A stretch of DNA of 36,006 bases from a virus. The notes under the pieces were generated by a model. That model was not told the origin of the DNA. It made no database searches and saw nothing but the letters and a program-made list of their open reading frames with translations. Shown here piece after piece: positions 928 to 35,957 of the stretch. The DNA lies in IMG/VR virus record IMGVR_UViG_3300000553_000139, positions 1 to 36,006 of that record; one strand, written 5' to 3'. Positions within the stretch are counted from its first letter, which is position 1. Every line of letters begins with the position of its first letter. The position numbers were made by a program, and so were the translations under genes.

Positions 928-1304
928 TTGGTGGTTGCTCCCTTGATCGCCTGAAGGTCTGTCAGGAGATCTGTTAAAGTTTTCGCTGACGCATCTGCTT
1001 GTGTCATATTGCCCGTCTGCTCGGCAAGCACTAACGCATCGTTCGCTGCTTGATATGTAGACGGTACTTTCTTGTAAAGGTTGGACGCCTTCAGGCAGTC
1101 TGCAGCCGGGATCATCCCCTGCTTGCAGCCGAGGTCTATCCCCTGGAATACAGTTATCGCATCCGCTTTGGTGTTGATCAGGTTGTTCGCCGCATCCGCC
1201 ATCGGATTCCCGACTGACGGGGTGCAGGCTGTCAGGGTGAACCCACCAAAAAGAAGAGCCACGGACAGGATCAATAGAACAATAAGTGTTTGTTTCTTCG
1301 TCAT
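924..1304 (-). CDS. phage lipoprotein, lysis module
   Basis: A 126-residue protein with a type II signal peptide: lysines at positions 3-4, a hydrophobic core about 7-22, and a lipobox LTAC with Cys27. The mature part is small, polar and alpha-helical (ADAANNLINTKADAITVF and following). The gene sits between a holin-like gene and other lysis genes, starts 3 bases after the previous stop, and has GGAGGGG upstream of its ATG. A membrane-anchored lipoprotein here could be an outer-membrane spanin subunit, but no partner embedded in another frame was identified, so that role is inferred from position only. Confidence 0.72.
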   Translation of the reverse strand: MTKKQTLIVLLILSVALLFGGFTLTACTPSVGNPMADAANNLINTKADAITVFQGIDLGCKQGMIPAADCLKASNLYKKVPSTYQAANDALVLAEQTGNMTQADASAKTLTDLLTDLQAIKGATTK

Positions 1305-1306
1305 GG

Positions 1307-1555
1307 TTAAAGCCCCTCCTTTGGGGCCGGTGGTACTGCTGGTTGAGGAAGAGGAGGCGCAGGGGTATCAATCGCTGTTGTCTGGTTCCCTCCCTGAGGT
1401 TGCCACGCCATCAAATGATAGCCAAAAAGAGCAGTGATACCATATTGCAGATAGCTGACGAAATTATTCGCGTCCGCTTTCCCGCAAATAACCAGGGCGC
1501 CCCACATAAAAAACAAGGCAGCGCCAGCATATAATTTCATCTTGTCATCTTTCAT
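1307..1555 (-). CDS. putative holin (two membrane segments)
   Basis: An 82-residue protein with two hydrophobic stretches, about residues 9-25 (YAGAALFFMWGALVICG) and 31-50 (FVSYLQYGITALFGYHLMAW), then a Pro- and Ala-rich hydrophilic tail. Small size, two spans, a charged N-terminus and the first position in a lysis cassette fit a class II holin, which would perforate the inner membrane to release the endolysin. The start is well supported by AAGGAGG six bases before the ATG, the strongest ribosome site of this block. No specific holin family is recognised. Confidence 0.65.
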   Translation of the reverse strand: MKDDKMKLYAGAALFFMWGALVICGKADANNFVSYLQYGITALFGYHLMAWQPQGGNQTTAIDTPAPPLPQPAVPPAPKEGL

Positions 1556-1643
1556 TTTCGCCTCCTTAATTTTAAAATTACGATATCAAAATATACTCAT
1601 TTATTCAACGTCATATTGGATATACTTAATCTTAAACTTTATA
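1556..1643 (-). promoter_or_regulatory. AT-rich intergenic gap before the lysis cassette
   Basis: An 88-base, strongly AT-rich gap in an otherwise gapless operon. It holds a perfect 14-bp palindrome TAATTTTAAAATTA (1567-1580) just upstream of the holin-like gene's ribosome site. On the minus strand there is a TTGAAT with a poor -10 match 17 bases later. An internal promoter or a regulator site for the lysis genes is possible, but no hexamer pair is convincing. Confidence 0.3.
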
Positions 1644-2093
1644 TTATTTCACAGTCTCTACAGGGAAGTTCATCATCCACAGATGTTCCGGCGTAAGGCG
1701 CTTGATCGTCTCAGGCCGATAGGGTAACGCCCCTCCCTTCTGCAAAGCCTTCCCGACGAATTCTGAGCACCACCACTTTGATTCATCTTCCCAATCGTGA
1801 TGCAAACCAAGGCCAAGAATGCCCCACCAATCATATGGCTTACCGATATTTCTCCACGCCCACGAGATCGCCGCTTTTGAATCACAGGGGATCGTCATGA
1901 TGCAAGCATTCTCAGCGATGGAGATCCTTTCCGACAAGGGGACCAGGGCCACGCCTTCAGGTGCATCCGCACCAAGAACGCTCTTGCCGACGATAATCTC
2001 AACATGAGACCAACGGGACCAGGTGATAGCCCGAATAAGCCAGCTACCGACAATTTTCCGACGAGTAAAAAGTATCCTGATTTCATCCTGCAT
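1644..2093 (-). CDS. permuted papain-fold (YiiX/NlpC-like) hydrolase
   Basis: A 149-residue protein with the layout of circularly permuted NlpC/P60-like (YiiX/YaeF-type) enzymes: an early His in WSHVEIIVG (His30) and a late nucleophile Cys in WWCSEFVGKAL (Cys109), with aromatic residues and IGKPYDWWG between them. Known relatives are thiol hydrolases acting on peptides, amides or lipids. In phages such proteins sit near the tail-fibre and lysis genes and may act on the cell envelope. It overlaps the preceding gene by 11 bases. The substrate cannot be inferred from sequence. Cys109 and His30 are both present, so it is probably active. Confidence 0.7.
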   Translation of the reverse strand: MQDEIRILFTRRKIVGSWLIRAITWSRWSHVEIIVGKSVLGADAPEGVALVPLSERISIAENACIMTIPCDSKAAISWAWRNIGKPYDWWGILGLGLHHDWEDESKWWCSEFVGKALQKGGALPYRPETIKRLTPEHLWMMNFPVETVK

Positions 2094-2583
2094 AGATTAC
2101 CGGCCATCCCCCGGAAAAATCATAAGTTGAAGGGTTCGCTGAAGCCCGCATTGCAGCGTTATGGGTTTCAGCCTGGGCAAAGGTTGCTTGATCCTGGGCG
2201 GCTGCGGCTGCAAAGATCTGCCCGGCGAGGGTCTGTGTCATGGTGATGAAAGATCCATCCATCGTCTTCCATTGAAGTCCGTTCGGGATGTTGGCACCCA
2301 TGAGAACAAGGCCCAACTGCTGGGATCTGCTGAAGGTGTCAGAGTTGAACCATTTTCCAGCTGCCTGATATCCGCCTGTTTGCGTCCTAATGTCTCGCAT
2401 GGCTTTGATCTTTTCCCACATCTGGTCAACTACAGAAACCGGATTAAGGAATGCCTGATATCGAGGATCAGTATCGGGAATCGCAGCCTGATTTGGATAG
2501 ACATTAGGATCTTGAGGACAGCCAAAAACTGTAGATACGGCTGTCTCGGTCGAGTCGGTGAATTGGACATAAACCGTTGCCAT
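2083..2583 (-). CDS. DUF4376-like tail-fibre accessory protein
   Basis: A 166-residue protein. The centre has the DUF4376 pattern: KIKAMRDIRTQTGGYQAAGKW, then NSDTFSRSQQLGLV and LQWKTMDGSFITMT, then a helical segment ending in YDFSGGWP. Proteins with this domain usually follow tail-fibre genes and are thought to be part of, or to assist assembly of, the fibre tip. The N-terminal 50 residues are beta-rich with a Pro-containing loop. It directly follows the fibre gene (11-base gap) in the same operon. The biochemical role is not established for the family. Confidence 0.75.
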   Translation of the reverse strand: MATVYVQFTDSTETAVSTVFGCPQDPNVYPNQAAIPDTDPRYQAFLNPVSVVDQMWEKIKAMRDIRTQTGGYQAAGKWFNSDTFSRSQQLGLVLMGANIPNGLQWKTMDGSFITMTQTLAGQIFAAAAAQDQATFAQAETHNAAMRASANPSTYDFSGGWPVIYAG

Positions 2584-2594
2584 TGTTAGTCTCC

Positions 2595-3548
2595 TTAGAT
2601 TGTATAACTGCTGATATTAAGCGTAACACTTGGAGTCCCGGAGCCTACCCATATTTCATAATAAAGCGTCTGCGGGGTGAGTAGAGATAACGAGGAAAAG
2701 GAAAAACTCTCGCCCCCTGCTGAAACTCCGCTTGAGCTTGCCATTTGCTGCGCTCCTACCCCCAAAACAGATGCAGCCAAAGCAACGTAAGTCGAGGCGT
2801 TTGCTGTATTATTGCTTAATGTCCAATACCCTGAAATGGTTTTGGCATTCAACGGAACAGCCGATGCAATTGACAAGGAAGTCCATGCACCTTGAAGTGT
2901 AGAGGTGTTTAAAACTGTGACATTGTAGATTGATATTAATCTATCAAGCTGCAAGCCTATTACAAATTGGCTTGCAGCATTAGTCGGCCAGACAGAAAGC
3001 AGGGCAGAGGCCGTGTACCCTGCTGGCATATTCGCACCGCCATAAACATTCGGAGCATTAACCGAAGTGGCATTGTATCCCAGGAGTGCAACATTCTGCG
3101 TGGTTGGGTTGTAAATAGCATAGACAGCGCAAAATCCAGATACCGGCCCAGCAGCCCCGGTGTCCATATATCCGGCACCTGGACCGCCTGCCATGTTCAG
3201 CGTTTTGTTCAGGTTTGCAATCTTGTAAGCAGTCCCGCCCAGGGCGGTTTCCAGGATGACTTCATCCGCCGTAAAGGTGATTGATGTTGCTGCTGCTGTG
3301 AGGCTGGCCTTCAGATTCCTGGCTGTTCCGACCACAGAAAGCGGCTGGCATACGATCCAGTATGAATTCGTGGAATCCCTCATCATCAGGAGGCCTGTGG
3401 CTGTATTAGCCCAGGTCATGAAAGGAAAAGTCGTGGTGGGAGCGGATGCCCCGCTGTTTTCTGAGACAAGAGCGGCCAGGGCCGCGTTTATCTCTGCCAG
3501 AACTGTCGCCCCGCTTCCGTCAGCGATCGTCATTGTTGCTTGTGCCAT
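2595..3548 (-). CDS. tail fibre / tail-tip structural protein
   Basis: A 317-residue protein rich in Ala, Ser, Thr and Gly with alternating beta patterns and almost no charge, as in phage fibre or tail-tip surface proteins. The N-terminus (ATVLAEINAALAALVSENSG) is a short helix that could dock on the J-like protein encoded just upstream. No catalytic motif is seen. The ATG at 3548 has AAAGGAG at good spacing. Its place between the J-like tip protein and a DUF4376 protein supports a receptor-binding role, which is inferred from context. Confidence 0.7.
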   Translation of the reverse strand: MAQATMTIADGSGATVLAEINAALAALVSENSGASAPTTTFPFMTWANTATGLLMMRDSTNSYWIVCQPLSVVGTARNLKASLTAAATSITFTADEVILETALGGTAYKIANLNKTLNMAGGPGAGYMDTGAAGPVSGFCAVYAIYNPTTQNVALLGYNATSVNAPNVYGGANMPAGYTASALLSVWPTNAASQFVIGLQLDRLISIYNVTVLNTSTLQGAWTSLSIASAVPLNAKTISGYWTLSNNTANASTYVALAASVLGVGAQQMASSSGVSAGGESFSFSSLSLLTPQTLYYEIWVGSGTPSVTLNISSYTI

Positions 3549-3557
3549 AATTCTCCT

Positions 3558-6545
3558 TTAATAAGCTGCGGCCAGCCAGTTGACTGTACGGGCGACACCG
3601 ATGCCGCCATTTAAAATTTGAATCGTTGCCCCGGATTTTGTCTGAGCCGTCAGGATTACATCATCGCCCTGAGAACCACTGACGATCGTGACCTGGAGAT
3701 TCGGGGCGACCTGAAAAGGTGTTGCATAGGTAATGGAAAGCCCGCCAGCTGGGACTGAAATCCCTGTTCCCTTGTCTGTCCTGTCAGGAACATCGACCGT
3801 GAAGACAAAGGAAGTCAGGATCGCCACGACTGAAGGATCATTACTATATAGATAGGCTCGGAAGCGTATTTTTCTGGCTGTGTATGATCCAGGAGTGAAA
3901 TCTTGCCACGCCCCGTATGTCCCGGTATTGTCAGAAAGCGCTACCTGCATCCGAAGGCCAGCTTGTCCTGAGTAATTTCCTGCAATGCTGGCAGCTGCTT
4001 TGACATCAGCGATGGTACTGAAAAGCGAATACGGGTTATCTGCCCTGGCTGTATAGGCAATAGACAGGTTGCAGATCTGGGAAAACCCGAGATCGACCTC
4101 ATGCGCTGTCGGAATCTGGTAATATCCGGAAGGAGAAACGCCACCGAAGAAGGCTACATCTGGCTGGGTTGAAAGCTGGGAAATCGTAGAGAAGTTTGAA
4201 GCTCCTGCAAGCTCCACATTTCCATTCACGATAGTCGCACCACCAGAGAATGTTCCGAGAAGCCCTGTCCCAAATTCGTCAATGGTTGCCACTATATTCT
4301 TGGTAATGCTCGATCCGACAATCACCACTGAAGAAGGGGAAGCTGAATAAGCATAAGGGCAATGTGCCGCCACCCAGTACGTACCATCTCCATCAGCTGC
4401 AATCGTGGTTGTGGGTGTGCGGCCAAGCACCTGGGCAGTCGCCCACGCAGTACCCTTTCTTATCTCATAATCGACAGCCCTGACCGGATCTGTGACGGAA
4501 TCCCAAGCCAGCATCGCCAATTGTCCACGCCATGTCACGATCAGATTGTTGACATTCGCCATCGGTGCCTTCAGGGCAGATCCGGTGACTGTGTACTGAT
4601 AGGCCGGTACATTTGCAAGCTGCTCGGTTGCGGCGCCATAAATATTGAATGATTGAAACTTGAAATAGAGCGGCTTACCCATCATGGTCAGGTCAAGCGG
4701 GTTTCCCTTAGCGATGGCTCCGTCTACTCTGACCACGATATCGCCGACATTGTGGGCCGTTGCTGCTGAATTGTAACAGCCACGCAGAAGGCCTGAAAGG
4801 GCATAGGCATTCGATCCGGTCAAGCTTGCGCCCTGGTAGGCTATGAATTCAGGTGGAATCCCAGGAGTCAGGATGGCGAGAAGGGTGGACATGTTTGCGG
4901 CATCGGTTGCGGATCCTGAAGTCAGCTGACCGCCCAGGCCATCAAGCAGAACAGCAAGGGAAGTATCGCCTGAAAGCATCCCGGCTGTCAGATGTCCGAC
5001 CCTTGATGGTGTTGTGGCCTGCCCGATTTGGTTGTAGCTGTTCCCATCATTGGAGGCCCAGATATTACAGCCACCCCAGGCTGTCCCGGCCTTCCCTGTT
5101 ACCGCGATCCAGACTTCAATTCCACTTGTGCCGGCCACATCTGCCACCGGCGGTTCAAAGAAGGCAGGAGTGAAAACGCTCCCAGGGGCGATATTGTAAT
5201 TTGCAGTATATCCGGTGCTGCCTCCCGGTGTGGCCTGTACTCTGCTGGCTGCTCCAGGTGGCGCATCCTCAGCGGTGATAGCCAGAGTTCCTGTATCGTC
5301 TTCTTCGACGATCAGGATTCTTACCGGCTTGAGATTGAGGCCGAGAGCCGTATCTGTGATCGTGACGATATCAGTCGGCTCAAGGTATGCGTAATTCCAA
5401 CCAAGATTGAAGATATACTGGTTGCGGATATAGACAGACCTCGCCAATATCAAGCTTGCCGCAGAATAGGCTGCGTTCGGATCGGTAATCTGGTGGGCCG
5501 TGATCTGATCCATGGGGATCAATCCGAATGTATCGATCGATACTTGATCCTGGACGGTACAAATCTCAGTATTGAACTCGTTGTTGATATTCAGATATTC
5601 GAGCGAGATTTGATTGAACGCGTCAGATGTTGTGTTGGCGGTTGTCGGAACAGCGTTCCTTTTCACCTGAACCGGATCATCGCCGGAGCCACCTATGATA
5701 AAATCATCATCCGTCAGATTTATAAGCGTCGAGGTGGGCGCCGTATAGGTGTACCCATATCCGGAAGCGTTTTGATCGCCATAAGGAACAACCTTCAACA
5801 CACCTTCGGAAAAATAGACACCTGTATTGAGAATCTGCATCAGATCTGTGAGCATCTGGGCAAGCGTATCTTGTGTATCGTAACAAGGAGACAAAAATAG
5901 GCCCATTGCCCCGCAGTAATTCTGGAAAGATGTTAAAGATCCGATTTTCGTTGAAGAAAACCCGGCTCCATAATGGGTATTGGTCAGAAGATCGTAAACG
6001 ATGTCTGCCGGATTCGCCCCGTTGTATCCATAAGCTGCATTTGCAAAATTTCCGTATACCTCGAAGCTGAAAGCAGGCATTGAGGTGTCGGTATCGAGAT
6101 TGAAATTCGCAGCTGAGACGTAGGCTATTCCGGGATAGTTCAGGCTCTGGCTCGGGTGCAAGCTGTCCATATACGGCCAAGTGGACTGCGGATAAGTCCC
6201 ATACAAACCCGACCAGACCGTCTGATCGATTACTTCACGGGTTTTTCCTGCCCACATGCTTGGAATACCGGAAATCTGGCCTTCGCAAAGAGCCATGACA
6301 AAAGAAGCTGTGTACGTCCAGGATGTCTGGGAAGATGTAACGCCCCCGCCTCCCTTGCCGCCACCCCCGCCATTGTTGGTAACATGGGGAACAGCGGTGA
6401 AATCTCCATACCAGAGAATATTGCCGGTTACTCTGCATCGGCCATAGGCCAGCGGGATAGGGTTTCCCTGGCAGGATGTCTGCATCTGGATAGCGGTCTG
6501 GACAGGATCGACCGTATTGATAGGAGCTGATCCGCCACCACCCAT
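3558..6545 (-). CDS. J-like tail tip / host-specificity protein
   Basis: A 995-residue protein, the usual size for lambda gpJ-type central tail-tip proteins. It starts with a Gly-rich segment, then QGNPIPLAYGRCRVTGNILWYGDF, which matches the beginning of phage tail-tip (J-like, GTA-type) proteins. A Gly-run (NNGGGGGKGGGG, near residues 57-68) is followed by TASFVMALCEGQISGI, also typical. The middle contains the LTDLMQILNTGVYFSEGVLKVVPYGD region found in these proteins, and the C-terminal half is made of fibronectin/Ig-like beta domains. It would close the tail tip and contact the receptor. The start overlaps the stop of the NlpC/P60 gene as TAATG. Confidence 0.85.
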   Translation of the reverse strand: MGGGGSAPINTVDPVQTAIQMQTSCQGNPIPLAYGRCRVTGNILWYGDFTAVPHVTNNGGGGGKGGGGVTSSQTSWTYTASFVMALCEGQISGIPSMWAGKTREVIDQTVWSGLYGTYPQSTWPYMDSLHPSQSLNYPGIAYVSAANFNLDTDTSMPAFSFEVYGNFANAAYGYNGANPADIVYDLLTNTHYGAGFSSTKIGSLTSFQNYCGAMGLFLSPCYDTQDTLAQMLTDLMQILNTGVYFSEGVLKVVPYGDQNASGYGYTYTAPTSTLINLTDDDFIIGGSGDDPVQVKRNAVPTTANTTSDAFNQISLEYLNINNEFNTEICTVQDQVSIDTFGLIPMDQITAHQITDPNAAYSAASLILARSVYIRNQYIFNLGWNYAYLEPTDIVTITDTALGLNLKPVRILIVEEDDTGTLAITAEDAPPGAASRVQATPGGSTGYTANYNIAPGSVFTPAFFEPPVADVAGTSGIEVWIAVTGKAGTAWGGCNIWASNDGNSYNQIGQATTPSRVGHLTAGMLSGDTSLAVLLDGLGGQLTSGSATDAANMSTLLAILTPGIPPEFIAYQGASLTGSNAYALSGLLRGCYNSAATAHNVGDIVVRVDGAIAKGNPLDLTMMGKPLYFKFQSFNIYGAATEQLANVPAYQYTVTGSALKAPMANVNNLIVTWRGQLAMLAWDSVTDPVRAVDYEIRKGTAWATAQVLGRTPTTTIAADGDGTYWVAAHCPYAYSASPSSVVIVGSSITKNIVATIDEFGTGLLGTFSGGATIVNGNVELAGASNFSTISQLSTQPDVAFFGGVSPSGYYQIPTAHEVDLGFSQICNLSIAYTARADNPYSLFSTIADVKAAASIAGNYSGQAGLRMQVALSDNTGTYGAWQDFTPGSYTARKIRFRAYLYSNDPSVVAILTSFVFTVDVPDRTDKGTGISVPAGGLSITYATPFQVAPNLQVTIVSGSQGDDVILTAQTKSGATIQILNGGIGVARTVNWLAAAY

Positions 6546-17240: not shown

Positions 17241-19519
17241 TCCGTATCCTCCTCGTCGTCATAATCAGTCTCAGGCAACACGTCGCACACGCATCTCGGA
17301 TGCAAAGGAGGACCGTCGCCACCATCGTTCGGGAAATCATCATCAATACCGACGGTCACTCCGTCGATCTCTTGGCATTCTTCGCAGCACGTAGGGGCCG
17401 CGATCCACGTCTTGCCCTGGACAACTCCGCTTGCCTTGTAGGCATTCAGATTGCCGTTGACGTCTGCAAAGGCTGTTTCTGTCCTGGCGATCGTCTCAGC
17501 CCGGGCATCACTGAATGCGTAATTGTCGGCGATCATGTCGGCGAGCTCGTCATTGCTCAGACCATCTTCCATGGCCTGCTGGATATCGCTTCTCAGGTAC
17601 TCGCGAGTGCTGTCAGTGATCGCCCACTCTGCATCCGGATTTTCCACCAGCTCACCATCAACCCATTTCATGCCGACAAGCTCTGCGGACCGCTGCTGGG
17701 CATACTCAACGGCCTTTTCATTCACCAGGTCAGTCATCTCTTTTGGAATATCGCCAATCCCCAGCTGCAGGAAGGCTTCACCTGAGCCGTCCTTGCCGAT
17801 GATCTCGATGATCTCCTGGACATCAGATGCCATTTCGTCCCATCCGTTCAGCTGGATATTCTTTATGATCAAAATGAGCCTTGCCTCATCGTCGGCAGAT
17901 AGCTTCTTTCCCAGAGTATCAATAACCTGACTTGCAACATCCTTCGCCTGCGCCTTGAAGAAGGATTTCAGCACGTTTTCCATCTTCTGCCTTTCGCCCA
18001 CAATCGCAGGGCGTTCCCTGTCGATGTGGGCCACCTGTTTTTTTCCCTTTGTCACTGCCCCCTTTTCTTTCCCCTGGGCAGCAGCAGCCGTACCTTCTTC
18101 CTTCGAGGGCACATTGGTATCGGTGGTTTCAGGAACCTGGACAGGTGCATCCGGAGCGGCACCAGGAGCGGCAACCACGATAGGAGGCGGAGGCGGTTCT
18201 GGTTCTGGCGGGGGATTGATGATGTCCTTTAAAAGAATCGGACCTGTTGCCGTGTAGATCATCAACTCGTTGCCATTAGGGTCAGGATCAAGCCCATCGA
18301 TAGCCCTGGCCTCGTTGATGGTCATGGATCCGTTCTTCATCTTGGTATCCACAATCTTCGCCTGGATCTCAGGCTGCATCGCGGTTTCTTCTTCCCAGAA
18401 GAAGCCCAGGTCAGGAAAACCAAGATATTTTCCAATGATCGTGTTGGCCAACTGCTGGATCCACAGCATGATCGGCTCAAGGCCTTCGGAGATTGCCGCT
18501 TCCTGAGCCGTCTCAGCTGTCGCACGATTCATCTGCTTCGTGAAAGCTTGAGGGCTGATAGAGAACGCAAAGCAGACGATCCGAGCAAGCCATTCGTCAA
18601 AGTCATCCTTTGTAACGCCAGCCTTGGTCTCTTGTATTTTAAGGCCGCCCGGGACAAACTTTGCGTGACTCCTGGCTGCCGTGTTTCCCTCAAGGAGAGA
18701 ATCCCAATATTTCTGAAACTGAGCTATCTGATCAGGGTTCCAGGTCTCAGGGACACCGATCAACGCCTCGGGGATATTCCCTTCGGTGTAATATTGAAGC
18801 TGGTGAAGGGATCGACGAAGCGCCACGTTTACAGTGAAGACGATCTGCTCGACCGGCGAATATCCATACACCTTATGAGTGCGGGGATTTCTCGGCATGT
18901 AAATCATTTCATCCGTCGAATAGTCGACTGCTGGCATCCCCTTTAATACTTGCTGGTACGCCACCTGTGGAGCTGCAGGAGTTCTTCCTGACTGATCGAC
19001 AATACGCTTGATCGTCGATCCGTCGATAGGGTCGAATGAATACGGCTGGCCGCCAACAGTCGGATGGACGTAAAGAGTTGGAGCGTCCAGGACAAACAGA
19101 TCCTCGAGCAGCATGCGCAGCCAGGTCGACCAGTCGTGCTCTTTGTCTGGAAGCTGCAGGAAGTCGTAAACTGTCTTGCAACGGTCATCTGCCTGGGCTT
19201 TCTCGTCCTTCGGCTTGATGTTCCAGGTCATCTTTGCAATCTGGTCTTTCCTGGTCTCGATGACCAGGCGCAAGACGTCGCAAGTCTCTGAAAGCGATCG
19301 CATCTGAGTGAAGGTGATATTCTCGCCATCTCTCGGCTGTCTGGACACGTTCTGCATCACAGGAAAGTCGAACTGTCTGCCGATCGCAGCGTCTTGCGCA
19401 ACAGGAGCCAACGGATCACCCGGGCCGAACCAATCAGGCTTCTTGCCGGTGAGAATATATTTGACGCCGGTAGTCAATCGCGTGATCAGCCCGGCTTCAA
19501 TTGGTTTCTTGTTCGCCAT
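17237..19519 (-). CDS. portal protein fused to MuF-type head morphogenesis domain
   Basis: A 760-residue protein, much longer than a usual portal. Residues about 60-435 are portal: TCDVLRLVIETRKDQIAKMTW, then DLFVLDAPTLYVHP, then MIYMPRNPRTHKVYGYSPVEQIV and the stem/wing part. A Pro-rich linker (436-460) follows. Residues about 505-750 are a MuF/SPP1 gp7-like minor head domain with DARAETIARTETAFADVNG, the pair CCEECQEIDG (Cys712, Cys715) and PPLHPRCVCDV (Cys743, Cys745), which likely bind zinc. In most phages the two are separate neighbouring genes. The start overlaps the terminase stop as TAATG. Confidence 0.85.
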   Translation of the reverse strand: MANKKPIEAGLITRLTTGVKYILTGKKPDWFGPGDPLAPVAQDAAIGRQFDFPVMQNVSRQPRDGENITFTQMRSLSETCDVLRLVIETRKDQIAKMTWNIKPKDEKAQADDRCKTVYDFLQLPDKEHDWSTWLRMLLEDLFVLDAPTLYVHPTVGGQPYSFDPIDGSTIKRIVDQSGRTPAAPQVAYQQVLKGMPAVDYSTDEMIYMPRNPRTHKVYGYSPVEQIVFTVNVALRRSLHQLQYYTEGNIPEALIGVPETWNPDQIAQFQKYWDSLLEGNTAARSHAKFVPGGLKIQETKAGVTKDDFDEWLARIVCFAFSISPQAFTKQMNRATAETAQEAAISEGLEPIMLWIQQLANTIIGKYLGFPDLGFFWEEETAMQPEIQAKIVDTKMKNGSMTINEARAIDGLDPDPNGNELMIYTATGPILLKDIINPPPEPEPPPPPIVVAAPGAAPDAPVQVPETTDTNVPSKEEGTAAAAQGKEKGAVTKGKKQVAHIDRERPAIVGERQKMENVLKSFFKAQAKDVASQVIDTLGKKLSADDEARLILIIKNIQLNGWDEMASDVQEIIEIIGKDGSGEAFLQLGIGDIPKEMTDLVNEKAVEYAQQRSAELVGMKWVDGELVENPDAEWAITDSTREYLRSDIQQAMEDGLSNDELADMIADNYAFSDARAETIARTETAFADVNGNLNAYKASGVVQGKTWIAAPTCCEECQEIDGVTVGIDDDFPNDGGDGPPLHPRCVCDVLPETDYDDEEDTE

Positions 19520-21867
19520 TACGCATTCCCCTTCGCTTGATTGGCATAGAAGTCAAGAATGCCTGTTGTGTTGTCGGTAAACATGCCGAATGCTCCACCC
19601 GCTGCATCTGCGTCGTCATCGTGCTTTTTGGGATTGCCGTCGAAAGATTCAAGGGAGCAAAACACGGCTTCATTCCAGTCGCCCCTGACAAACAGCACAT
19701 TCCCGGCTTTGCATTGTGCTGAGAACGGGCCGAACCTTGTCACCTTGTCGCCACGCTCAGGCCTGGCCGAAACGGAGTATCCGGACAGATCAAGAACCAT
19801 GTCTTTCGCCTGTGCCTTTCCGGCCTGCCCTGGATCTTGAGGCAACCCGATACGAACCGAAGTTCCGTCACTGCTCGCCAGATTTTTCAAAGACTGACGC
19901 ACCTCGAATGGCCCCACTCGATCTCGGTAGACATGCTTCACATAGAATCGTTTGGTCTTTCTGCAGCGTCCCATTCTCCAGCCGACAGTCCAGTCCGGAT
20001 CATTGGTACCGTCATACTCAGTAGCGGCAAGATCCCAATATCGGACCTCATCGAGATCAGCCGGCGCAACATCGACAACTGATACCCATTCGCGCCGGAA
20101 ATAGAGCCCCGCTGCAGGACGGATCTTCCAATTGCCTCCAAGCAATCGAGCCTGGGTCACGACATCCAGCGCCTTAAGGTTGGCAAGGTACCCAGGGTCT
20201 TTCTTGAGAAGCGCAGGATTGTCATGGATTGTCGATGGAATGAACGTGAATGATTTCGGCTCACATTCCGGGCCGTGCTGGTCTATAAGTTCCTGTCTGG
20301 AGGCACCCCATGCGATTTTGTCATTCACTCGACAGAACCAGCGGATCACGCCGCCGCGCTCTTTTATTGGATATCCTGTCTCCTGATCAATCCACCACGC
20401 GATAAGTTCAGCGACGAAGGAATCAGGATCCGGGTTACAGGTGCCGCGGATATAAGGACGCACTCCACAGGTTGAACGATTCCGGGAAAGCATATAGAAG
20501 AATTGATTGCGGGTGAAATGCGTCAACTCGTCAAAGCAGTTCTTGTTGACTAATCCAAAATCTGTTATATAATGCGAAGTGTCTTCAATAGTTAAATCAA
20601 CAACAAATCTTTTCCCGCATGGCTTTATACTCAATGAATCAAGATAAACATCCTCTTCCGCAATCAGTTCTTTCCCCGTATACGGGTGGACATACCGTAA
20701 TTTACGGAGGATATGTCTTTGAGCTTTGTCCTGATCACCCGAAGGCAAACCATTTTGGATTTGTCGTACAACATCGATTAGTAAAAGAGAGGGAGTCCGG
20801 TTTCTACCTTTCCCCACACATGCAAGTGCACCATAAAAACGGTGATAAAACTGACAATTCTCCAGAGAACCTTGAAATATTAAACCGTTCAGAACATATG
20901 AGGATGCACAGGAAAAAAGATTTCGAGAAAAAGCATACGCCCTTGACGCAAAAGATAGTGAAGGAGGCTCTTTTTCGAGGTGGCTTAAAACACGCCGCGG
21001 CCGTTCTTGGTTGCCACACAGAGACAATTCGCAACCGGTACCCGGACCTTGTTTCTCCTTATAAAAGGAAAAGCCCGACGAAAATTGACGATCCCGAGAT
21101 AATTGAAAAAGTATTGTCTTGCGCCAAAAACGAGAGAAAAAGCGTGAGAGATACCGTCCAAGAAACTGGAGTTTCTTACCGCACCATAATGAGAATTTGC
21201 GACAGGAACGGGGTCCAATGGATTGCTCCATTCCGAGGGAAAGGTGAGATTCATTCACAATATCGTCGTAAGACTTCCATCCCGAGTCCGTCAAAATCTT
21301 GTGAGTGAACGAATGCTCCTGAAACTTTCCGTTTCTTGCTTTAGCCCTTACACAATTTTCTAAACGCCGATTTCCTTTCCATAAAACCTTCTTACTCCCT
21401 TGGAGTGTACGTACCTCGTCACCTATCTCTATTTCTGACAGAGCTTTTTTTGTTCCATCTGCCATGCTGATCAAGGTGTCTTCAGCGCAACAGATCAGCG
21501 GAACTTCCGCACCTTGCCAATCGAGGACGGATGTTTCCTGCTCGAGGTGTCCGATTGCAACCTTGCCGCCTTTCGGAAATTGATATGTCAGGTTGGAAAT
21601 GTTCGGCTTTCCACCAGCCAGGGAAAGAATATTTCCCATCTGGTCCCAGGTAGATCCAGGCTTCTTTGCATCCGCCAAAGTCCGACGAAAGATGACGGTG
21701 TAAAAACCTTTATTCCCCTGGACGTGTCGCAAAGGCTCAAGGAGAAGCGCCCAGCTTTTTCCACCACCAGCCGCACCGCCATAGATAGCGATATCAGCTG
21801 ATGTGCTGAGGAAAACAGTCTGTGCGCCTGCTTGCGGCCTAATCTCCATCATTGTCATTTCTGCCAT
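19519..21867 (-). CDS. terL: terminase large subunit interrupted by an intein
   Basis: The continuous frame encodes 782 residues from the ATG at 21867 (starts at 21858, 21852 or 21849 are also possible; none has a clear ribosome site). The ATPase Walker A is YGGAAGGGKSWA; Walker B is split by an intein: EVPLI before, CFDELTHF after. After removal of about 318 residues the mature enzyme is about 464 residues, the normal size. The C-terminal RNase H-like nuclease keeps its acidic residues: VRYWDLAATEY, GLPQDPGQAGK and KKHDDDADA. It packages DNA through the portal. Because the Walker B aspartate-glutamate pair lies right after the intein, the unspliced protein should be inactive. Confidence 0.93.
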   Translation of the reverse strand: MAEMTMMEIRPQAGAQTVFLSTSADIAIYGGAAGGGKSWALLLEPLRHVQGNKGFYTVIFRRTLADAKKPGSTWDQMGNILSLAGGKPNISNLTYQFPKGGKVAIGHLEQETSVLDWQGAEVPLICCAEDTLISMADGTKKALSEIEIGDEVRTLQGSKKVLWKGNRRLENCVRAKARNGKFQEHSFTHKILTDSGWKSYDDIVNESHLSLGMEQSIGPRSCRKFSLWCGKKLQFLGRYLSRFFSRFWRKTILFQLSRDRQFSSGFSFYKEKQGPGTGCELSLCGNQERPRRVLSHLEKEPPSLSFASRAYAFSRNLFSCASSYVLNGLIFQGSLENCQFYHRFYGALACVGKGRNRTPSLLLIDVVRQIQNGLPSGDQDKAQRHILRKLRYVHPYTGKELIAEEDVYLDSLSIKPCGKRFVVDLTIEDTSHYITDFGLVNKNCFDELTHFTRNQFFYMLSRNRSTCGVRPYIRGTCNPDPDSFVAELIAWWIDQETGYPIKERGGVIRWFCRVNDKIAWGASRQELIDQHGPECEPKSFTFIPSTIHDNPALLKKDPGYLANLKALDVVTQARLLGGNWKIRPAAGLYFRREWVSVVDVAPADLDEVRYWDLAATEYDGTNDPDWTVGWRMGRCRKTKRFYVKHVYRDRVGPFEVRQSLKNLASSDGTSVRIGLPQDPGQAGKAQAKDMVLDLSGYSVSARPERGDKVTRFGPFSAQCKAGNVLFVRGDWNEAVFCSLESFDGNPKKHDDDADAAGGAFGMFTDNTTGILDFYANQAKGNA
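20546..20573 (+). promoter_or_regulatory. sigma70-like promoter for the antisense HNH gene
   Basis: TTGACT (20546-20551), a 16-base spacer, then a perfect TATAAT (20568-20573). Transcription would begin near 20580, leaving about 39 bases before the HNH ATG at 20619. The hexamers lie within the last dozen intein codons (the minus strand reads SHYITDFGLVNKN across them), so the promoter is inside the intein and would travel with it. Chance similarity is possible since these codons are also under protein constraint. Confidence 0.55.
20619..21308 (+). CDS. HNH homing endonuclease encoded antisense within the intein
   Basis: A 229-residue protein on the strand opposite to the terminase. Residues 32-97 match HNH_3-type homing endonucleases: YVFELCPDHPKANHFGFVVQHRLV, then VHHKNGDKTDNSPENLEIL, then SEHMRMH, with His71-His72, Asn84 and His93 as the catalytic and metal residues. 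Two helix-turn-helix-like segments follow (about 122-142, HAAAVLGCHTETIRNRY, and 174-198, VRDTVQETGVSYRTIMRICDRNGV), suitable for target recognition. No Shine-Dalgarno precedes the ATG at 20619 or the second ATG at 20634. The full frame lies within the intein, overlapping both splicing domains at its ends. It would cut intein-less terminase alleles. Confidence 0.85.
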   Translation: MALYSMNQDKHPLPQSVLSPYTGGHTVIYGGYVFELCPDHPKANHFGFVVQHRLVKERESGFYLSPHMQVHHKNGDKTDNSPENLEILNRSEHMRMHRKKDFEKKHTPLTQKIVKEALFRGGLKHAAAVLGCHTETIRNRYPDLVSPYKRKSPTKIDDPEIIEKVLSCAKNERKSVRDTVQETGVSYRTIMRICDRNGVQWIAPFRGKGEIHSQYRRKTSIPSPSKSCE

Positions 21868-22378
21868 TGTCAGGAAGGAAGATATGAACAAAAGCTGATT
21901 TTGTTGTCAGGGTTCCCTCTAACTCAACTCTTTCTTTGAACATGCCGAGGTGTCTGGCGATAAGCTCAAGGGCTCTGATCTTGTCGTTGGTCTTGAGCTT
22001 CAACGTGCGGCCATTCTCGCTGAAGGATTCAGAGACCTCAGAGACAAAAGCCGCTTCTTCATCGGTAAGCTCTGAGCTTTCGCGGAGTGAAACGCCACCA
22101 GGTCCCCACTTCATCACTGCCCGAGGATCGCCGAACCCAATCTTTGCCAGTTCGTTCAAGACACGATCAGAGGTTATCTCAGTTCGCTTCTCTCGATCGG
22201 CCATTGCCTTCTGGATAGCCTCTGCTATCTCAGGTTTTCTCAGGATCTCATATCCAATAGAATCTGCTCTCTTGGCGCTATACCCTGCTCTGATTGCAGC
22301 CTGGGTAGCGTTGAGGTCAACGAGGTATTCGGCAACGAATAATCGCTGTTTTTTTGAGGTGATTCCTTTTCCGGCCAT
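21839..22378 (-). CDS. terS: terminase small subunit (Terminase_2 family)
   Basis: A 179-residue protein. The N-terminal half is classic: LTSKKQRLF-like ITSKKQRLFVAEYLVDLNATQAAIRAGYS, then SIGYEILRKPEIAEAIQ, a DNA-binding helix-turn-helix domain. Next come DRVLNELAKIGFGDPRAV and KIRALELIARHLGMF, also typical of this family. It recognises the packaging site and passes DNA to the large subunit. AGGAA six bases before the ATG supports the start, and a late promoter is expected in the gap upstream. It overlaps the large subunit gene. Confidence 0.93.
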   Translation of the reverse strand: MAGKGITSKKQRLFVAEYLVDLNATQAAIRAGYSAKRADSIGYEILRKPEIAEAIQKAMADREKRTEITSDRVLNELAKIGFGDPRAVMKWGPGGVSLRESSELTDEEAAFVSEVSESFSENGRTLKLKTNDKIRALELIARHLGMFKERVELEGTLTTKSAFVHIFLPDNGRNDNDGD

Positions 22379-22586
22379 TGAATATTCCTGAAAATTATAA
22401 AACTTTTTTCAAGATAACCATGGCCGGGTAAAAAAGTAAATGTACTTTCTAGCTTTTAATTCTATGATATTATTTATCCATACTTTTCAACACATACAGA
22501 CTATTAAATATGGATAAATAATCGTGAATGCAGCTTGGGAATAAAATTGAGAATAAATTCTTTGAAAATTGCAGAGAAAATCGCCC
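22379..22586. promoter_or_regulatory. late-operon control region with 14-bp inverted repeat
   Basis: A 208-base AT-rich gap between the early-operon end and the terminase genes. It contains a perfect 14-bp inverted repeat, ATTATTTATCCATA (22469-22482) and TATGGATAAATAAT (22509-22522), spaced by 26 bases. On the minus strand a TTGAAA (22490-22485) lies between the arms and a TATAAT lies just before the terminase ribosome site, but these two are not spaced as a pair. A near direct repeat, AAAATCGCCC with similar flanks, lies at 22577-22586 and 22597-22606. This is the likely late promoter and regulator-binding site; hexamers are not certain. Confidence 0.5.
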
Positions 22587-25751: not shown

Positions 25752-26465
25752 TCACTTTTTACACGCAAACACCGGGATACCCGTCAGCTTCCGGACTTCC
25801 CGCACAGCGTGATCCTCGTTTATGTTATCATCCGACATATGCATCAGATGGATCTCTTTAACCTGGCTCATATCATTGGCTTTAAAAAGGTCCAGGACAT
25901 GATCGAGGCCGAAGTGCGTCCGGATCACCCGATCGTACCGGCTCTTGTCGATCGCGCCGGTGTTTAACCTCTCCTGCAGGATGGCCAGGGAATAGTTGCA
26001 CTCGACCATGATGTGAGTGAGACCAGTGAACCGTTGGAGTAGGTAGGCCGTATCGGTAGCGAAGAGCAACTTGTCTCCCCCATTGCTGGCTATCAAGAAA
26101 CCAAGCGGCTCTTGGCAATCATGGACCGTATCGAATGGCATAACAGACCATGATCCTACCCTGAACTGCTCACCGGCTTTAACGATATGTAGACGGTGAG
26201 TGCTTGGAAGGTTTTTCAATTCCGAGGCGGTACCCTGGCTCATGTAGACATCAACGCCGTACTTCATAAGGTCGTTTATTGCCTTGGAATGATCACCATG
26301 TTCATGACTTACAAGGCATCCGGACACGGTTGACATTTCAAATTTCAGGGCCTCTCTAATCTTGGAGATCGGGACACCACAGTCCAGGAGAAGGGAGCTT
26401 TTCCGGCTGGTTATCCTATAGCAGTTCCCGGAAGAGCTGCTATTTATGGATTGGATGTCGATCAT
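25752..26465 (-). CDS. metallo-beta-lactamase-fold hydrolase of the recombination set
   Basis: A 237-residue MBL-fold protein with SINSSSSGNCYRI, LLLDCGVP and the metal motif SHEHGDHS (His54, His56, Asp58, His59), then a later VHDCQEPLGF (His), ATDTAYLL (Asp) and RTHFGLDH / LMHMSDDN (His). The fold matches YycJ/WalJ-like and related nuclease-type members. Its start touches the RecT stop. Phage gene sets with an SbcC-like ATPase, RecT and an MBL protein are known, and the MBL protein is thought to supply the exonuclease partner of RecT, since no YqaJ or lambda-exo gene is present here (inference). Confidence 0.8.
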   Translation of the reverse strand: MIDIQSINSSSSGNCYRITSRKSSLLLDCGVPISKIREALKFEMSTVSGCLVSHEHGDHSKAINDLMKYGVDVYMSQGTASELKNLPSTHRLHIVKAGEQFRVGSWSVMPFDTVHDCQEPLGFLIASNGGDKLLFATDTAYLLQRFTGLTHIMVECNYSLAILQERLNTGAIDKSRYDRVIRTHFGLDHVLDLFKANDMSQVKEIHLMHMSDDNINEDHAVREVRKLTGIPVFACKK

Positions 26466-27481
26466 CAGAAATCAGGTCCGCCAGTTGATGATGTATCGGG
26501 ATCCTCTTGCTCTGATTCCTGTTTTTCCTGTTTTTCGGCATCATTTGAGGGGATATCTTCCTGTGTAGCCTCTGGCTTTACGTCAATAATCTCACCGTTG
26601 GCGTTTTCGTTATAATCTTCCTCTACTTTAGCCTCCCGAAAGGTTGATTCGTTCTGCAGCATAGTCTGGTAGGCATCGTCAATCTTCTGGCTGTCGATCG
26701 TGATGTCTCCATACGCGGCCCGCTTGACGGTCTTGAGGGCCATCTGCTCAAACCATCCGTCAATCACCTCTTTCTCTCCGGTTCTCTTATTGTTCTTCCA
26801 AATATCCTTCTCGCCTCCCCAGAATTCGGCGCTGGCGTTTTTCGGCTTTCGTTTCATGATGTCTTTCAGGCTCATAGTGACCAGCCTGTTTTTTTCCGGC
26901 TTGGTATGGAATTCATAGTAATAAAATCCACCAACTATCTCCCCGCGATCAAAAGGATTGACGATATTGAGCTCAAAGCTCTCGATCTTGTTATTTCGAT
27001 CCTTCTTTACAACCTTGAATTGATCGTTCGAATAGACCAGGTCGACAATGATATTGTCCGGAACGTCCAGTCCGTATTTATAGGATTTGAGTTCAAGGCC
27101 CCGGTAACCAGGGATGAAGGTAATATCGTAAAGTTTGGTCGTATTGTTTTTGAAAGGGATCATCGACACATGATTCTTTTCAAGCGGATCCCATCCGATT
27201 CTGGCAGCCGACACAACATTCCTGGCCATGCCATCCATATTGATGGTGTTCCAGTTAATTGGAAGCGGATCCCGGTATTCTTCTTTCTTCTTCAGTCGCT
27301 TTTCCTCTGCCAGCTTAAGAACAGAGTCGACGGCCATGAAGTAATTCTGGGCCAGCCGTTTTTGATATTTTGTCAGGGCAATTTCGCCAACATTGGTCCC
27401 GAATTCGTTCACCACCTTGAGCATGAATCTTTCGGAGGTGGATTGCTCCTGTTTGGTTAAATCTGTTATTGGTGCGGTCAT
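26465..27481 (-). CDS. recT: RecT-family single-strand annealing recombinase
   Basis: A 338-residue protein. Conserved RecT features: DGMARNVVSAARIGWDPLEKNHVSMIPFKN, then DITFIPGYRGLELKSYKYG, then YYYEFHTKPEKNRLVTMSLKDIMKRKPK, and a C-terminal WFEQMALKTVKRAAY. The acidic C-terminus (from about residue 285) is disordered. RecT anneals complementary strands in phage recombination. The ATG at 27481 has GGAG nine bases upstream; the longer frame to 27511 overlaps the upstream gene and is less likely. Confidence 0.88.
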   Translation of the reverse strand: MTAPITDLTKQEQSTSERFMLKVVNEFGTNVGEIALTKYQKRLAQNYFMAVDSVLKLAEEKRLKKKEEYRDPLPINWNTINMDGMARNVVSAARIGWDPLEKNHVSMIPFKNNTTKLYDITFIPGYRGLELKSYKYGLDVPDNIIVDLVYSNDQFKVVKKDRNNKIESFELNIVNPFDRGEIVGGFYYYEFHTKPEKNRLVTMSLKDIMKRKPKNASAEFWGGEKDIWKNNKRTGEKEVIDGWFEQMALKTVKRAAYGDITIDSQKIDDAYQTMLQNESTFREAKVEEDYNENANGEIIDVKPEATQEDIPSNDAEKQEKQESEQEDPDTSSTGGPDF

Positions 27482-27494
27482 GGCGTGGATCTCC

Positions 27495-29432
27495 TTATTG
27501 TTCAATAGCAAAATTTACGGTGAGGTCTTTGTGGGCTTCGCTGACGACCAGGCTGATAACCTGGGTGTCCATCTTGGGTAACGAGGTGATGCTCTCCCGG
27601 TTGTCTACGATGATCAACGGGCGGAAATTATGGTGTTCTGAAATAGTCCGGATGATGTCAAGACCGGCCTGAATCCGCGCCGCATTGTTAAGAGATCCAT
27701 ACGGAACGCCGTCGACCGTCAACACGCAGGTGTCGGTCAGGCCGCCGTTGATCTGCTCTTCGTACATTTTGAAACGGACGAATTTGAATTTTCCGTTGAT
27801 CTTTTCGTCCAGCATGGACACCTTCTCTCGGGTGAACGTCTCTATCAGGAGGAGGGCTTTTTCAAGCTCGGAAAACTCATCTGCCAGCTGGCGCTCTTCT
27901 TTCTTTAGGTCCCGGATCCGGTCTTCAGCCCTGTGTAATGCTTCAACGGCAGAGATGTGCTGGTTGTTAAGGGCGATCTGCTCTTCAATAACGGCTTTTT
28001 CTGCCTCGGCCTTTTCGACAAGAGAAGAATTGCCAGCCTGCAGGGAGGTGATCTCCTCTTCGATGGCCTCTTTTTCCCGGACGGCGGTTTTGTATTCAAC
28101 AAGGTCGGTGAGGTCGGGAGCTGCTGATCGTGCACTATCGATCTCACTCGTTATCTTGGTTTTTTCAGCTGCTCGTTCTTCGATTTTATCCTGCAGGGAG
28201 GCAATTTCTCCTTGCAGGGCGAAGTTTTTCCCTGTCAGCTCATCAATAGTTTTCTTATTCCCCTTCCCTTCCGAGTTCAGCTTTTCCAGAGTGGTAGATT
28301 TATTGAGGTTGAATTCCCCTCTCGCCTTTTCGAGTTTTTCTGGTGGGAGCTCCTGGTTACAGGTAGGGCAGACGGAACCTGTGAAGGTCAAGTCGTTTAC
28401 CCGGTACCACTCCTTTTTGATGGAGTCGTTCTTCTCTGTAAGCGCCTCGATCGCCCGGTCATTCGATCGAACCTTAAACAATAAATCTTGCAGTTTTGTG
28501 GTATAGATTCCCTCCTGATCTCGCATCGCGTCAATGATTGACCGCTTTTTTGAAATAGCGGCCTCGGTCTGGTTGGAGAACGTTCGCTTGATCTGGCCGA
28601 TGATCTCTTCCTGCTTCATCAGCCTTTCCCGCATGGTGACAATTCCGCCGCCAGCCTTGATTGTGGCAATCTCCTGGTTCTGCTGGTCCAGTTCGGCACG
28701 CAACTTTGTCAATCGGTCGATGATCGCCTGGGGATTCGTCACAGCCAGGGCGGTTGGCTTTGAGCGCTCAGCCTCATCAACACGCCCGGGTAACTGATTC
28801 AGGGCCTCATTGATTTTCCTTCTTCGGCTGGAGACGATCGCTTTGTATTCGTCACAGGTTTTACCATCGAGAATCGGGACCAGGGCGGCAAGATCCGGAT
28901 GCAGGCTGATTACCTCTTCGTCGGTAACGTTCCCGCAGACCTCCAACAGGATTTCCCGCTGCTTTGACCATTTCAGCCCGGCAAAGGTATGAGGGTTGGT
29001 CAGCAGCTTGAATAGCGTTTCTTCGACGCCGATCGCGGCAACCTTGTCCTGGTATCCACCTTTTGTTATCGGTACATCGTTGAAGTAATATTCAGTCTCG
29101 TGGCCGGTAAACTCCTTGATGGCGGATCCACGCTTCCTTGTGTATTTCTCAACGTAGATCTTTTTGAGCTTCACCGAAGTTCCATTGATAAATGTGGCCT
29201 CAACTTCATGGTCAAGCATGGGGAAGGCAACACCTGTCGAATCCAGGGTTTTGATTTCGAATTCCTTTGAGCCCAGGGTGTCTTTGTCAAAAAGAAGCCA
29301 GGAGATGCTGTCGGCGATCGTGGTCTTGCCGGTGGCGTTGTCGCCCAGGATGATGATATCCTTGCATCCTGCGGTCAGGGTGAAGTCCCTGATGCCCTTG
29401 AAATTCTTGATTCTCAATTTGTCGAGTTTCAT
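27495..29432 (-). CDS. SbcC/Rad50-like ATPase
   Basis: A 645-residue SMC-like protein. N-terminal KLRIKNFKGIRDFTL and Walker A GDNATGKTT (30-38). Two coiled-coil arms (about 235-345 and 375-540) flank a zinc-hook-like CPTC (Cys355-Cys358). The C-terminal lobe has a signature-like PYGSLNNAARIQAGLDIIRTI and a Walker B-like PLIIVDNRES with Asp610; the usual Glu after Asp is Asn611, with Glu613 two residues further, as seen in other phage members. It would process DNA ends with the MBL-fold nuclease and RecT, whose genes follow. About 645 residues is short for SbcC (about 1000). Confidence 0.85.
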   Translation of the reverse strand: MKLDKLRIKNFKGIRDFTLTAGCKDIIILGDNATGKTTIADSISWLLFDKDTLGSKEFEIKTLDSTGVAFPMLDHEVEATFINGTSVKLKKIYVEKYTRKRGSAIKEFTGHETEYYFNDVPITKGGYQDKVAAIGVEETLFKLLTNPHTFAGLKWSKQREILLEVCGNVTDEEVISLHPDLAALVPILDGKTCDEYKAIVSSRRRKINEALNQLPGRVDEAERSKPTALAVTNPQAIIDRLTKLRAELDQQNQEIATIKAGGGIVTMRERLMKQEEIIGQIKRTFSNQTEAAISKKRSIIDAMRDQEGIYTTKLQDLLFKVRSNDRAIEALTEKNDSIKKEWYRVNDLTFTGSVCPTCNQELPPEKLEKARGEFNLNKSTTLEKLNSEGKGNKKTIDELTGKNFALQGEIASLQDKIEERAAEKTKITSEIDSARSAAPDLTDLVEYKTAVREKEAIEEEITSLQAGNSSLVEKAEAEKAVIEEQIALNNQHISAVEALHRAEDRIRDLKKEERQLADEFSELEKALLLIETFTREKVSMLDEKINGKFKFVRFKMYEEQINGGLTDTCVLTVDGVPYGSLNNAARIQAGLDIIRTISEHHNFRPLIIVDNRESITSLPKMDTQVISLVVSEAHKDLTVNFAIEQ

Positions 29433-34898: not shown

Positions 34899-35957
34899 AT
34901 GAGCGTAAGAGAACACCCAACAAAACCAGGGCACTGGATAATTGACTGTCGCCCCTCCGGATACATGGGAAAAAGAGAGAGGCTTGTTGTCCAGGGCAAT
35001 ACAAGGGTTCAAGCCCTGGATATCGAAAAAAGTATAATGCGGCGCCATGTTGATATGCCGTCCTCTGCTACAGCCAAGACGATCGCGGCAATTTATCCCA
35101 TTTGGATATCCTACTATAAGGCAAATCGTGCGCCATGGAGCGTTGTCAACGTAGAAGGATGCTGGAACAGGACGTTGCGTAATGCGTTTGGAAAGCTGCA
35201 GCCTAAAATGCTGACCAGGTCGATAATTGAGCAGTACAAATCGTCAAGATTGACTGCAGGAGTAAAACCAAGGACCATCAACAAGGAAATCGCTTTTCTA
35301 TCCGGAATGCTCAAATGGGCCCAGGAGAATGACCTTTGCGATCCGCTCCCATTCCTCATCAAGGGTTTCCCTGCTAAAATGATTGTCTCTCCGAAGCCGA
35401 GGCCGTTAAATCAAGAACAGATAACCATGATATATAACGAGATGCCCCATAATCTTAAGCTGGCATTCCTCCTTATGGCCGACGCCGGGCTGAGGCACCG
35501 TGAAGCCTTAGGGTTAAAAAGAGAGTCTGTCGAGTTTACCCAGGGAGTTATCTTTGTGACGGGCAAAGGAGGAAAAGAAAGGATCGTCCCGATCACGACC
35601 GATCGACTAATGAAAGAACTCGAGTTAAAGAAGGACGTGACGGGATGGTTAACTGTGAACTCAGTGACCGAAAAGCCATATCTAACAATTGGAGTCCAAT
35701 TGAACGAGGCTGTAAAAAAGGCAGGACTCGATAAGCATGTATACCCTCATCTCCTCCGTCACAGCTTTGGTACAAATGCGACAATGGCAGACTTCTCTTT
35801 GTCGTCCTTGCAGTCCATCATGGGGCATAGTTCAGTAAATACGACAGGCCTCTATCAACATTTAGCAGGAGAATATTTGAGGAATGAAGGCAGGAAATTG
35901 AACTCTATGGTACATAATGTTTGTCCACATGGAAAGTTGAATATTCAAGATAAGTAA
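34899..35957 (+). CDS. int: tyrosine recombinase integrase
   Basis: A 352-residue tyrosine recombinase. N-terminal arm-binding region 1-50 and core-binding SAM-like region about 60-155 (AAIYPIWISYYKANRAPWSVVN). Catalytic residues in order: Arg199 (DAGLRHREALGL), Lys223 (VTGKGGKER), His284 and Arg287 (PHLLRHSFG), His310 (MGHSS) and Tyr319 (TTGLYQHL), all present, so it should be active. It integrates and excises the prophage. The gene reads off the right end, so the attachment site probably lies just beyond the window. No ribosome site is seen before the ATG. Confidence 0.93.
   Translation: MSVREHPTKPGHWIIDCRPSGYMGKRERLVVQGNTRVQALDIEKSIMRRHVDMPSSATAKTIAAIYPIWISYYKANRAPWSVVNVEGCWNRTLRNAFGKLQPKMLTRSIIEQYKSSRLTAGVKPRTINKEIAFLSGMLKWAQENDLCDPLPFLIKGFPAKMIVSPKPRPLNQEQITMIYNEMPHNLKLAFLLMADAGLRHREALGLKRESVEFTQGVIFVTGKGGKERIVPITTDRLMKELELKKDVTGWLTVNSVTEKPYLTIGVQLNEAVKKAGLDKHVYPHLLRHSFGTNATMADFSLSSLQSIMGHSSVNTTGLYQHLAGEYLRNEGRKLNSMVHNVCPHGKLNIQDK

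Follow-up and report, generated by a model that had tools for sequence, protein, structure and literature searches.

By current understanding, an intein endonuclease is a domain fused in frame, an arrangement that ties nuclease expression and folding to the host protein. The intein that Dalgaard et al. described in 1997 reportedly carries its HNH domain in this way, as part of the intein polypeptide; the locus described here likewise has an HNH-type nuclease, but as a separate protein encoded antisense. Also related are the "fractured genes" of Dassa et al. (2009), in which split inteins are said to flank a free-standing endonuclease gene, so that the endonuclease is its own protein between intein halves. 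In that arrangement, however, host gene and intein are broken in two, whereas here the frame of the phage terminase TerL is continuous and overlaps a nuclease gene on the opposite strand.

TerL inteins are known from mycobacteriophages, where they sit in the ATPase domain, one site (TerL1-e) lying in Walker B, and five have been shown to splice (Kelley et al., 2016, PMC5050341). Our intein shares this location in the TerL ATPase domain, Walker B site included; in contrast, the endonucleases of the mycobacteriophage inteins are in-frame LAGLIDADG domains, and that study does not mention an antisense gene (PMC5050341). The "hidden HNH" insertions ShiLan and Pacc40 sit in phage DNA methylases (Arsenault, Gosselin, Gogarten, 2025, PMC11855218). 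Like our locus, they place an HNH in a different frame of an insertion whose host-gene frame remains open, and they resemble it further in spreading like a homing element and in the poorly structured host-frame product (PMC11855218). Yet they have no detectable intein splicing domains, whereas our locus holds a complete intein; and their start and stop are reported along the insertion, the opposite strand going unmentioned (PMC11855218), whereas our HNH is antisense. A same-strand, frameshifted HNH of the ShiLan type was rejected for our locus because its HNH is on the other strand and splicing domains are present.

An antisense homing endonuclease gene is described for the Didymium S956 group I introns (PMC13182076, citing Johansen 2006), and as described there it too lies opposite to the host-gene strand inside a self-splicing element. 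Because an intron leaves at the RNA level, nothing requires its antisense strand to remain open; here, in contrast, the sense strand must be translated through the nuclease gene. A survey of full-text literature that included few subscription papers or preprints found no report of an antisense endonuclease gene in an intein; the layout was also unfamiliar to the preliminary description of this DNA. Each component is thus known, while the arrangement is one for which we found no report in inteins, its nearest precedents being the ShiLan-type HNH and the antisense group I intron genes. We suggest, with a probability of roughly 0.86, that the element is a mobile intein in a phage TerL, with its homing endonuclease encoded separately on the opposite strand.

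The TerL intein and its antisense HNH gene

The stretch analysed, hereafter the window, is the 36,006-base IMG/VR virus record IMGVR_UViG_3300000553_000139. Its TerL frame (19519-21891, minus strand) runs open over 790 aa and has Pfam matches to Terminase_6N and Terminase_6C; the likely start is the ATG at 21867, with the frame open as far as the TTG at 21891. The N-terminal extein (21493..21867, minus strand) carries Walker A GGAAGGGKS and the Terminase_6N match, and the C-terminal extein (19519..20538, minus strand) the remaining ATPase and the RNase H-like nuclease (Terminase_6C, E 6e-12). Between them, at 20539..21492 on the minus strand, lies an intein of 318 aa, residues 134-451 of the frame, with splicing blocks at both ends; the preliminary description had placed it exactly. 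It is inserted between PLI and the Walker B sequence CFDELTHF, beginning CCAEDTLI with C1 at 21492 and ending in LVNKN at 20539, whose terminal N is followed by the Cys+1 of CFDELTHF. Block B is found around HSFTHKIL (21315-21298), block F is VVDLTIEDTSHYI and block G is LVNKN. The intein has a G+C content of 43%, against 51-53% in the exteins, an A+T-richness that fits expectation for a recent arrival.

The N-terminal splicing half (residues 1-85; 21238..21492, minus strand) contains blocks A and B with the invariant His64, and the C-terminal half (residues 262-318; 20539..20709, minus strand) HPYT and blocks F and G. In AlphaFold predictions, which drew on 24 family members, pLDDT is mostly above 90 over residues 1-80 and 80-96 over residues 261-318, but falls below 50 in most of 137-261, which lies opposite the HNH; both ends are thus predicted with confidence to fold as a Hint domain around a middle predicted to be disordered. 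Foldseek matched the model, N-terminal half included, to the gp41-1, MchDnaB and Ssp DnaB inteins. Across 24 aligned inteins C1, H64, N318 and HPY are invariant; among 44, C1 is present in all 44 and the +1 residue is C in 36, T in 5 and S in 3. Two departures, a Ser replacing the Thr of TxxH in block B and a penultimate residue that is K, R, Q or S and never His, make splicing efficiency uncertain. We counted this against the mobile-intein reading, as we did the Pfam scores under curated cut-offs: PF05203 gives a weak N-terminal Hint match of 20.2 bits (cut-off 32.1), and PF14890 does not match the window intein. The intact Hint domain and catalytic residues nevertheless suggest that the insert would splice itself out at Walker B.

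No endonuclease lies in frame between the splicing blocks, where Pfam reports only the terminase and the weak Hint match; the same absence had been noted by eye, and the low-confidence AlphaFold middle agrees with it. A group I or II intron was also considered and dropped, as an Rfam scan of 19300-22500 matched no intron RNA structure.

On the plus strand, the same DNA encodes an HNH_3 homing-endonuclease-like protein (20634..21308, alternative start 20619), matching PF13392 with E 5e-11 and 42.4 bits against a cut-off of 24.8. The preliminary description had read the whole ORF, 20619-21308, as a 229-residue protein with H-N-H residues; the identification stands and the HH, N and H columns are invariant in our HNH alignment, but the start is more likely the ATG at 20634 (224 aa), since most relatives start about 15 codons before a YxGG motif. 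The two helix-turn-helix segments it proposed are borne out by Pfam helix-turn-helix models, and in the AlphaFold model (mean pLDDT 85) the HNH core is followed by two helical segments; several PHROGs HNH families match as well. No solved nuclease in the PDB is a good match to this model, the only HNH being I-HmuI at E 0.4, which we counted against the mobile-intein reading. Judged from homology, the protein probably cuts or nicks intein-free terL. Its gene runs into both splicing domains, as had been described, its 3' end overlying intein residues 63-85 and its 5' end residues 262-287. Within the latter, a palindrome at 20676-20685, CCGTATACGG, encodes PYTG on both strands, within the invariant HPYT of the intein and the N-terminus of the HNH.

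Selection on both strands

The phase shared by the two genes sets HNH third positions on intein second positions. Over 15 pairs drawn from six groups, per-codon differences at intein positions 1/2/3 were.37/.29/.63 before the HNH gene,.32/.53/.26 in the HNH core and.31/.22/.54 after the gene: within the HNH gene the peak falls on the HNH third position, and elsewhere on that of the intein. The cleanest pair, L112 and L113, gave counts of 11/5/33, 21/80/16 and 6/2/14 in these three regions. We conclude that the middle is constrained as HNH and the ends as intein. The two overlaps behave as expected if both frames count: at 21238..21308, where the HNH C-terminus covers intein residues 63-85, the rates are mixed (.26/.39/.30), and at 20634..20709, where the HNH N-terminus lies over the HPYT strand region, every codon position has a low rate (.22/.32/.21).

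The intein frame was examined further by shuffling synonymous HNH codons and counting intein-frame stops. In the window about 10 stops were expected and none was observed, a value never reached in 3000 shuffles; seven members had 5.7-15 expected per locus and 26 further members 8.2 on average, with none observed in any of them. The HNH frame is under purifying selection, where the preliminary description had named decay at neutral rates as evidence against its reading, and the DNA is coding on both strands, as it had held. Together, the substitution pattern and the stop test show that in its middle the intein is a disordered spacer without constraint, in which stops are avoided so that TerL production continues. 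The locus offers a strong natural example of antisense dual coding, in which selection can be measured on each strand.

Recurrence and probable mobility of the TerL intein family

With a single HNH or intein sequence as query, first scans found almost no relatives. The family came into view through patterns and alignments. A pattern for the intein end directly before CFDELTHF, built without regard to the HNH, found 8 IMG/VR contigs, all 8 with the intein and all 8 with the antisense HNH. A broader pattern, [IV]N[KR]N followed by CFDE, gave 27 stretches, of which 2 were unrelated; among the remaining 25, the antisense HNH is present in 21, while the other 4, of which three are distinct, are mini-inteins of 147-151 aa that lack it. 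L184 and L189 both carry the antisense HNH. In a scan with the HNH alignment, embedded copies lay inside a long antisense frame and free-standing copies had only short antisense frames. Finally, a scan of IMG/VR with a pattern from blocks F/G of the intein alignment, the HNH not being used, returned 80 loci with the HNH antisense in 78; the other two are L246, cut off at a contig end, and L275, a mini-intein. A LAGLIDADG-like motif is absent from all 80.

All searches together yielded 128 HNH sequences (68 clusters at 90% identity), with an identical codon phase relative to the intein in 128/128, so that the antisense layout, which the preliminary description proposed to look for in relatives, is the rule in this family. 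The full HNH motif is retained in 63 of the 68 clusters, the others being truncated, decayed or variant. The same description would have counted a splicing intein with no relative carrying the plus-strand gene as contrary evidence; here the only relatives lacking the HNH are mini-inteins or decay products. The host gene was TerL wherever inspected (ten confirmed by Pfam or PHROGs), and insertion is always in Walker B, where an acidic pair follows the +1 residue at a distance of 2, 3 or 5 residues. Homing genes can thus hide where annotation pipelines report a terminase only.

Among named phages, tblastn of INPHARED with three HNH and two intein queries found no case; the HNH matches inspected, in phiH and Javan74, are free-standing and on the same strand as their neighbours. 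Among bacterial genomes, neither 289 from the phylum of the Verrucomicrobiota hit nor 385 from the class of the Pseudorhizobium hit yielded another full copy. A large subgroup from many metagenomes (L223-L252 and similar) has Ser or Thr at +1 before [xx]A[VI]EEAGNY, with a weak ribosome-site signal at the HNH start. In L132 a single TerL frame (989-5365, minus strand) apparently holds four inteins: a mini-intein in Walker A, the Walker B intein with antisense HNH, and two more minis in the C-terminal half. In L111 (1730-5458, minus strand) and L182, TerL has a Walker A intein with an in-frame LAGLIDADG-like endonuclease adjoining a Walker B intein of the antisense-HNH family (a mini in L182), two endonuclease layouts in one gene.

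Several observations indicate movement, as the preliminary description had supposed. L109, with the intein, and L010, without it, are sister TerLs; when the L109 flanks are joined, 1200 bases align to L010 at 87.75% identity with no gaps, and the 948-base insertion is thus exact. L010 is a clean empty allele of the intein-less kind sought, and 80 TerL relatives have no sign of an insertion at the Walker B site. The window's best TerL matches, at about 60%, lack the intein, which is scattered over a tree of 59 TerLs such that at least 6 changes are needed. Between the window and L093, identity is 71% for the HNH, 56% for the splicing domains and 49% for the exteins; intein and HNH are more alike than exteins in some pairs, and others look more vertical. 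Distances of HNH and intein correlate beyond those of the extein (partial r 0.37). The exact empty site, the patchy distribution and the closeness of intein and HNH in some pairs strongly indicate that the intein is mobile.

The embedded HNHs form one clade except for L173, an exception explained by decay: this relic on a Pseudorhizobium pelagicum chromosome contig (3762-4528) is without TerL context and retains only the C-terminal half of the HNH, together with a remnant of antisense block B. L253 and L279 also have decayed HNHs. A homing cycle predicts such empty, full, decayed and mini states at a single site, in an order that we can only propose; comparing these alleles would make the origin of intein-endonuclease partnerships testable.

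Expression and alternative explanations

In 31 relatives we took the ATG nearest 15 codons before the YxGG motif, a rule chosen after the list was viewed, and found ribosome-site-like pairing with a mean of -5.3 versus -1.4 kcal/mol; pairing at -5 or better occurred in 61% versus 9%, reached by 0/5000 null draws. The effect is weak in 22 further loci (P 0.012) and the window HNH gene has no good ribosome-binding site, both of which we counted against the mobile-intein reading. Upstream of the gene, in blocks F/G, is a promoter-like TTGACT-N16-TATAAT (20546..20573, plus strand, 11/12 matches), with a matching sequence in the same position in most relatives. It lies on the codons for LVN and HYI, and so is mostly dictated by the conserved protein, which likewise counted against this reading; promoter scores slightly exceed a synonymous null (9.81 versus 9.24, 0/500 null draws as high). 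Independent HNH expression from its own start is plausible on these signals.

The two genes might be integrated beyond their overlap, with blocks F/G (HYIT...LVNKN) read backwards as the -10/-35 promoter of the nuclease, splicing strands serving as both nuclease ends, and antisense transcription through terL timing or regulating packaging. We consider this somewhat unlikely; if true, the intein would be a self-contained two-strand selfish element whose protein-splicing motifs double as regulatory DNA.

Antisense ORFs are generally common, and the window has many unrelated ones, so the plus-strand frame might be a by-product of intein coding. The probability of this is close to nil: HNH_3 homology, conserved catalytic residues, a confident fold and recurrence in 68 clusters speak against it, and the concentration of substitutions at HNH third positions, with the homology, refutes it. 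A real protein need not be a homing enzyme, or still be one; it could have been recruited, e.g., to regulate terL by antisense transcription or to attack co-infecting phages. Such a role would fit with the purifying selection maintained over long divergence, with the two helix-turn-helix-like segments and with the overlap of an antisense gene with an essential late gene. We give it little credence, as the H-N-H residues are intact in most copies, the pattern of presence and absence is typical of homing, and phages tolerate the decayed and mini forms.

It is equally improbable, in our estimate, that a free-standing HNH jumped once, in reverse orientation, into a mini-intein and persists there without driving its movement. 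Many related HNHs are indeed free-standing, and an insert between splicing halves is in the usual place of intein endonucleases. Against this, the embedded HNHs form one clade that is confined to this TerL intein family, over a wide range of TerLs, their distances track those of the intein beyond the extein, and copies lacking the HNH are a small minority. We favor the mobile intein with an antisense endonuclease, in which nuclease and splicing are uncoupled, each on its own strand, but move and evolve together as a single element across a large family of TerL inteins from uncultured phages.

Homology suggests how splicing, expression and cutting could combine in such an element. TerL would be translated with the intein, which would splice out at Walker B, and the HNH gene would be expressed separately from the antisense strand, from its own start. 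In mixed infection the HNH would cut or nick intein-free terL alleles, and break repair would copy intein and HNH together, as the empty site and patchy distribution suggest. Later loss of the nuclease would leave the mini-inteins that we observe, if change runs in that direction.

The window phage is probably temperate, as indicated by a tyrosine-type integrase match (34899-35957, plus strand; phrog_1, E 1e-52), and its late genes are on the minus strand. It also encodes a RecT-like annealing protein and an SbcC-like protein (26465-29432, minus strand), a phage recombination pair that could be used for break repair during homing.
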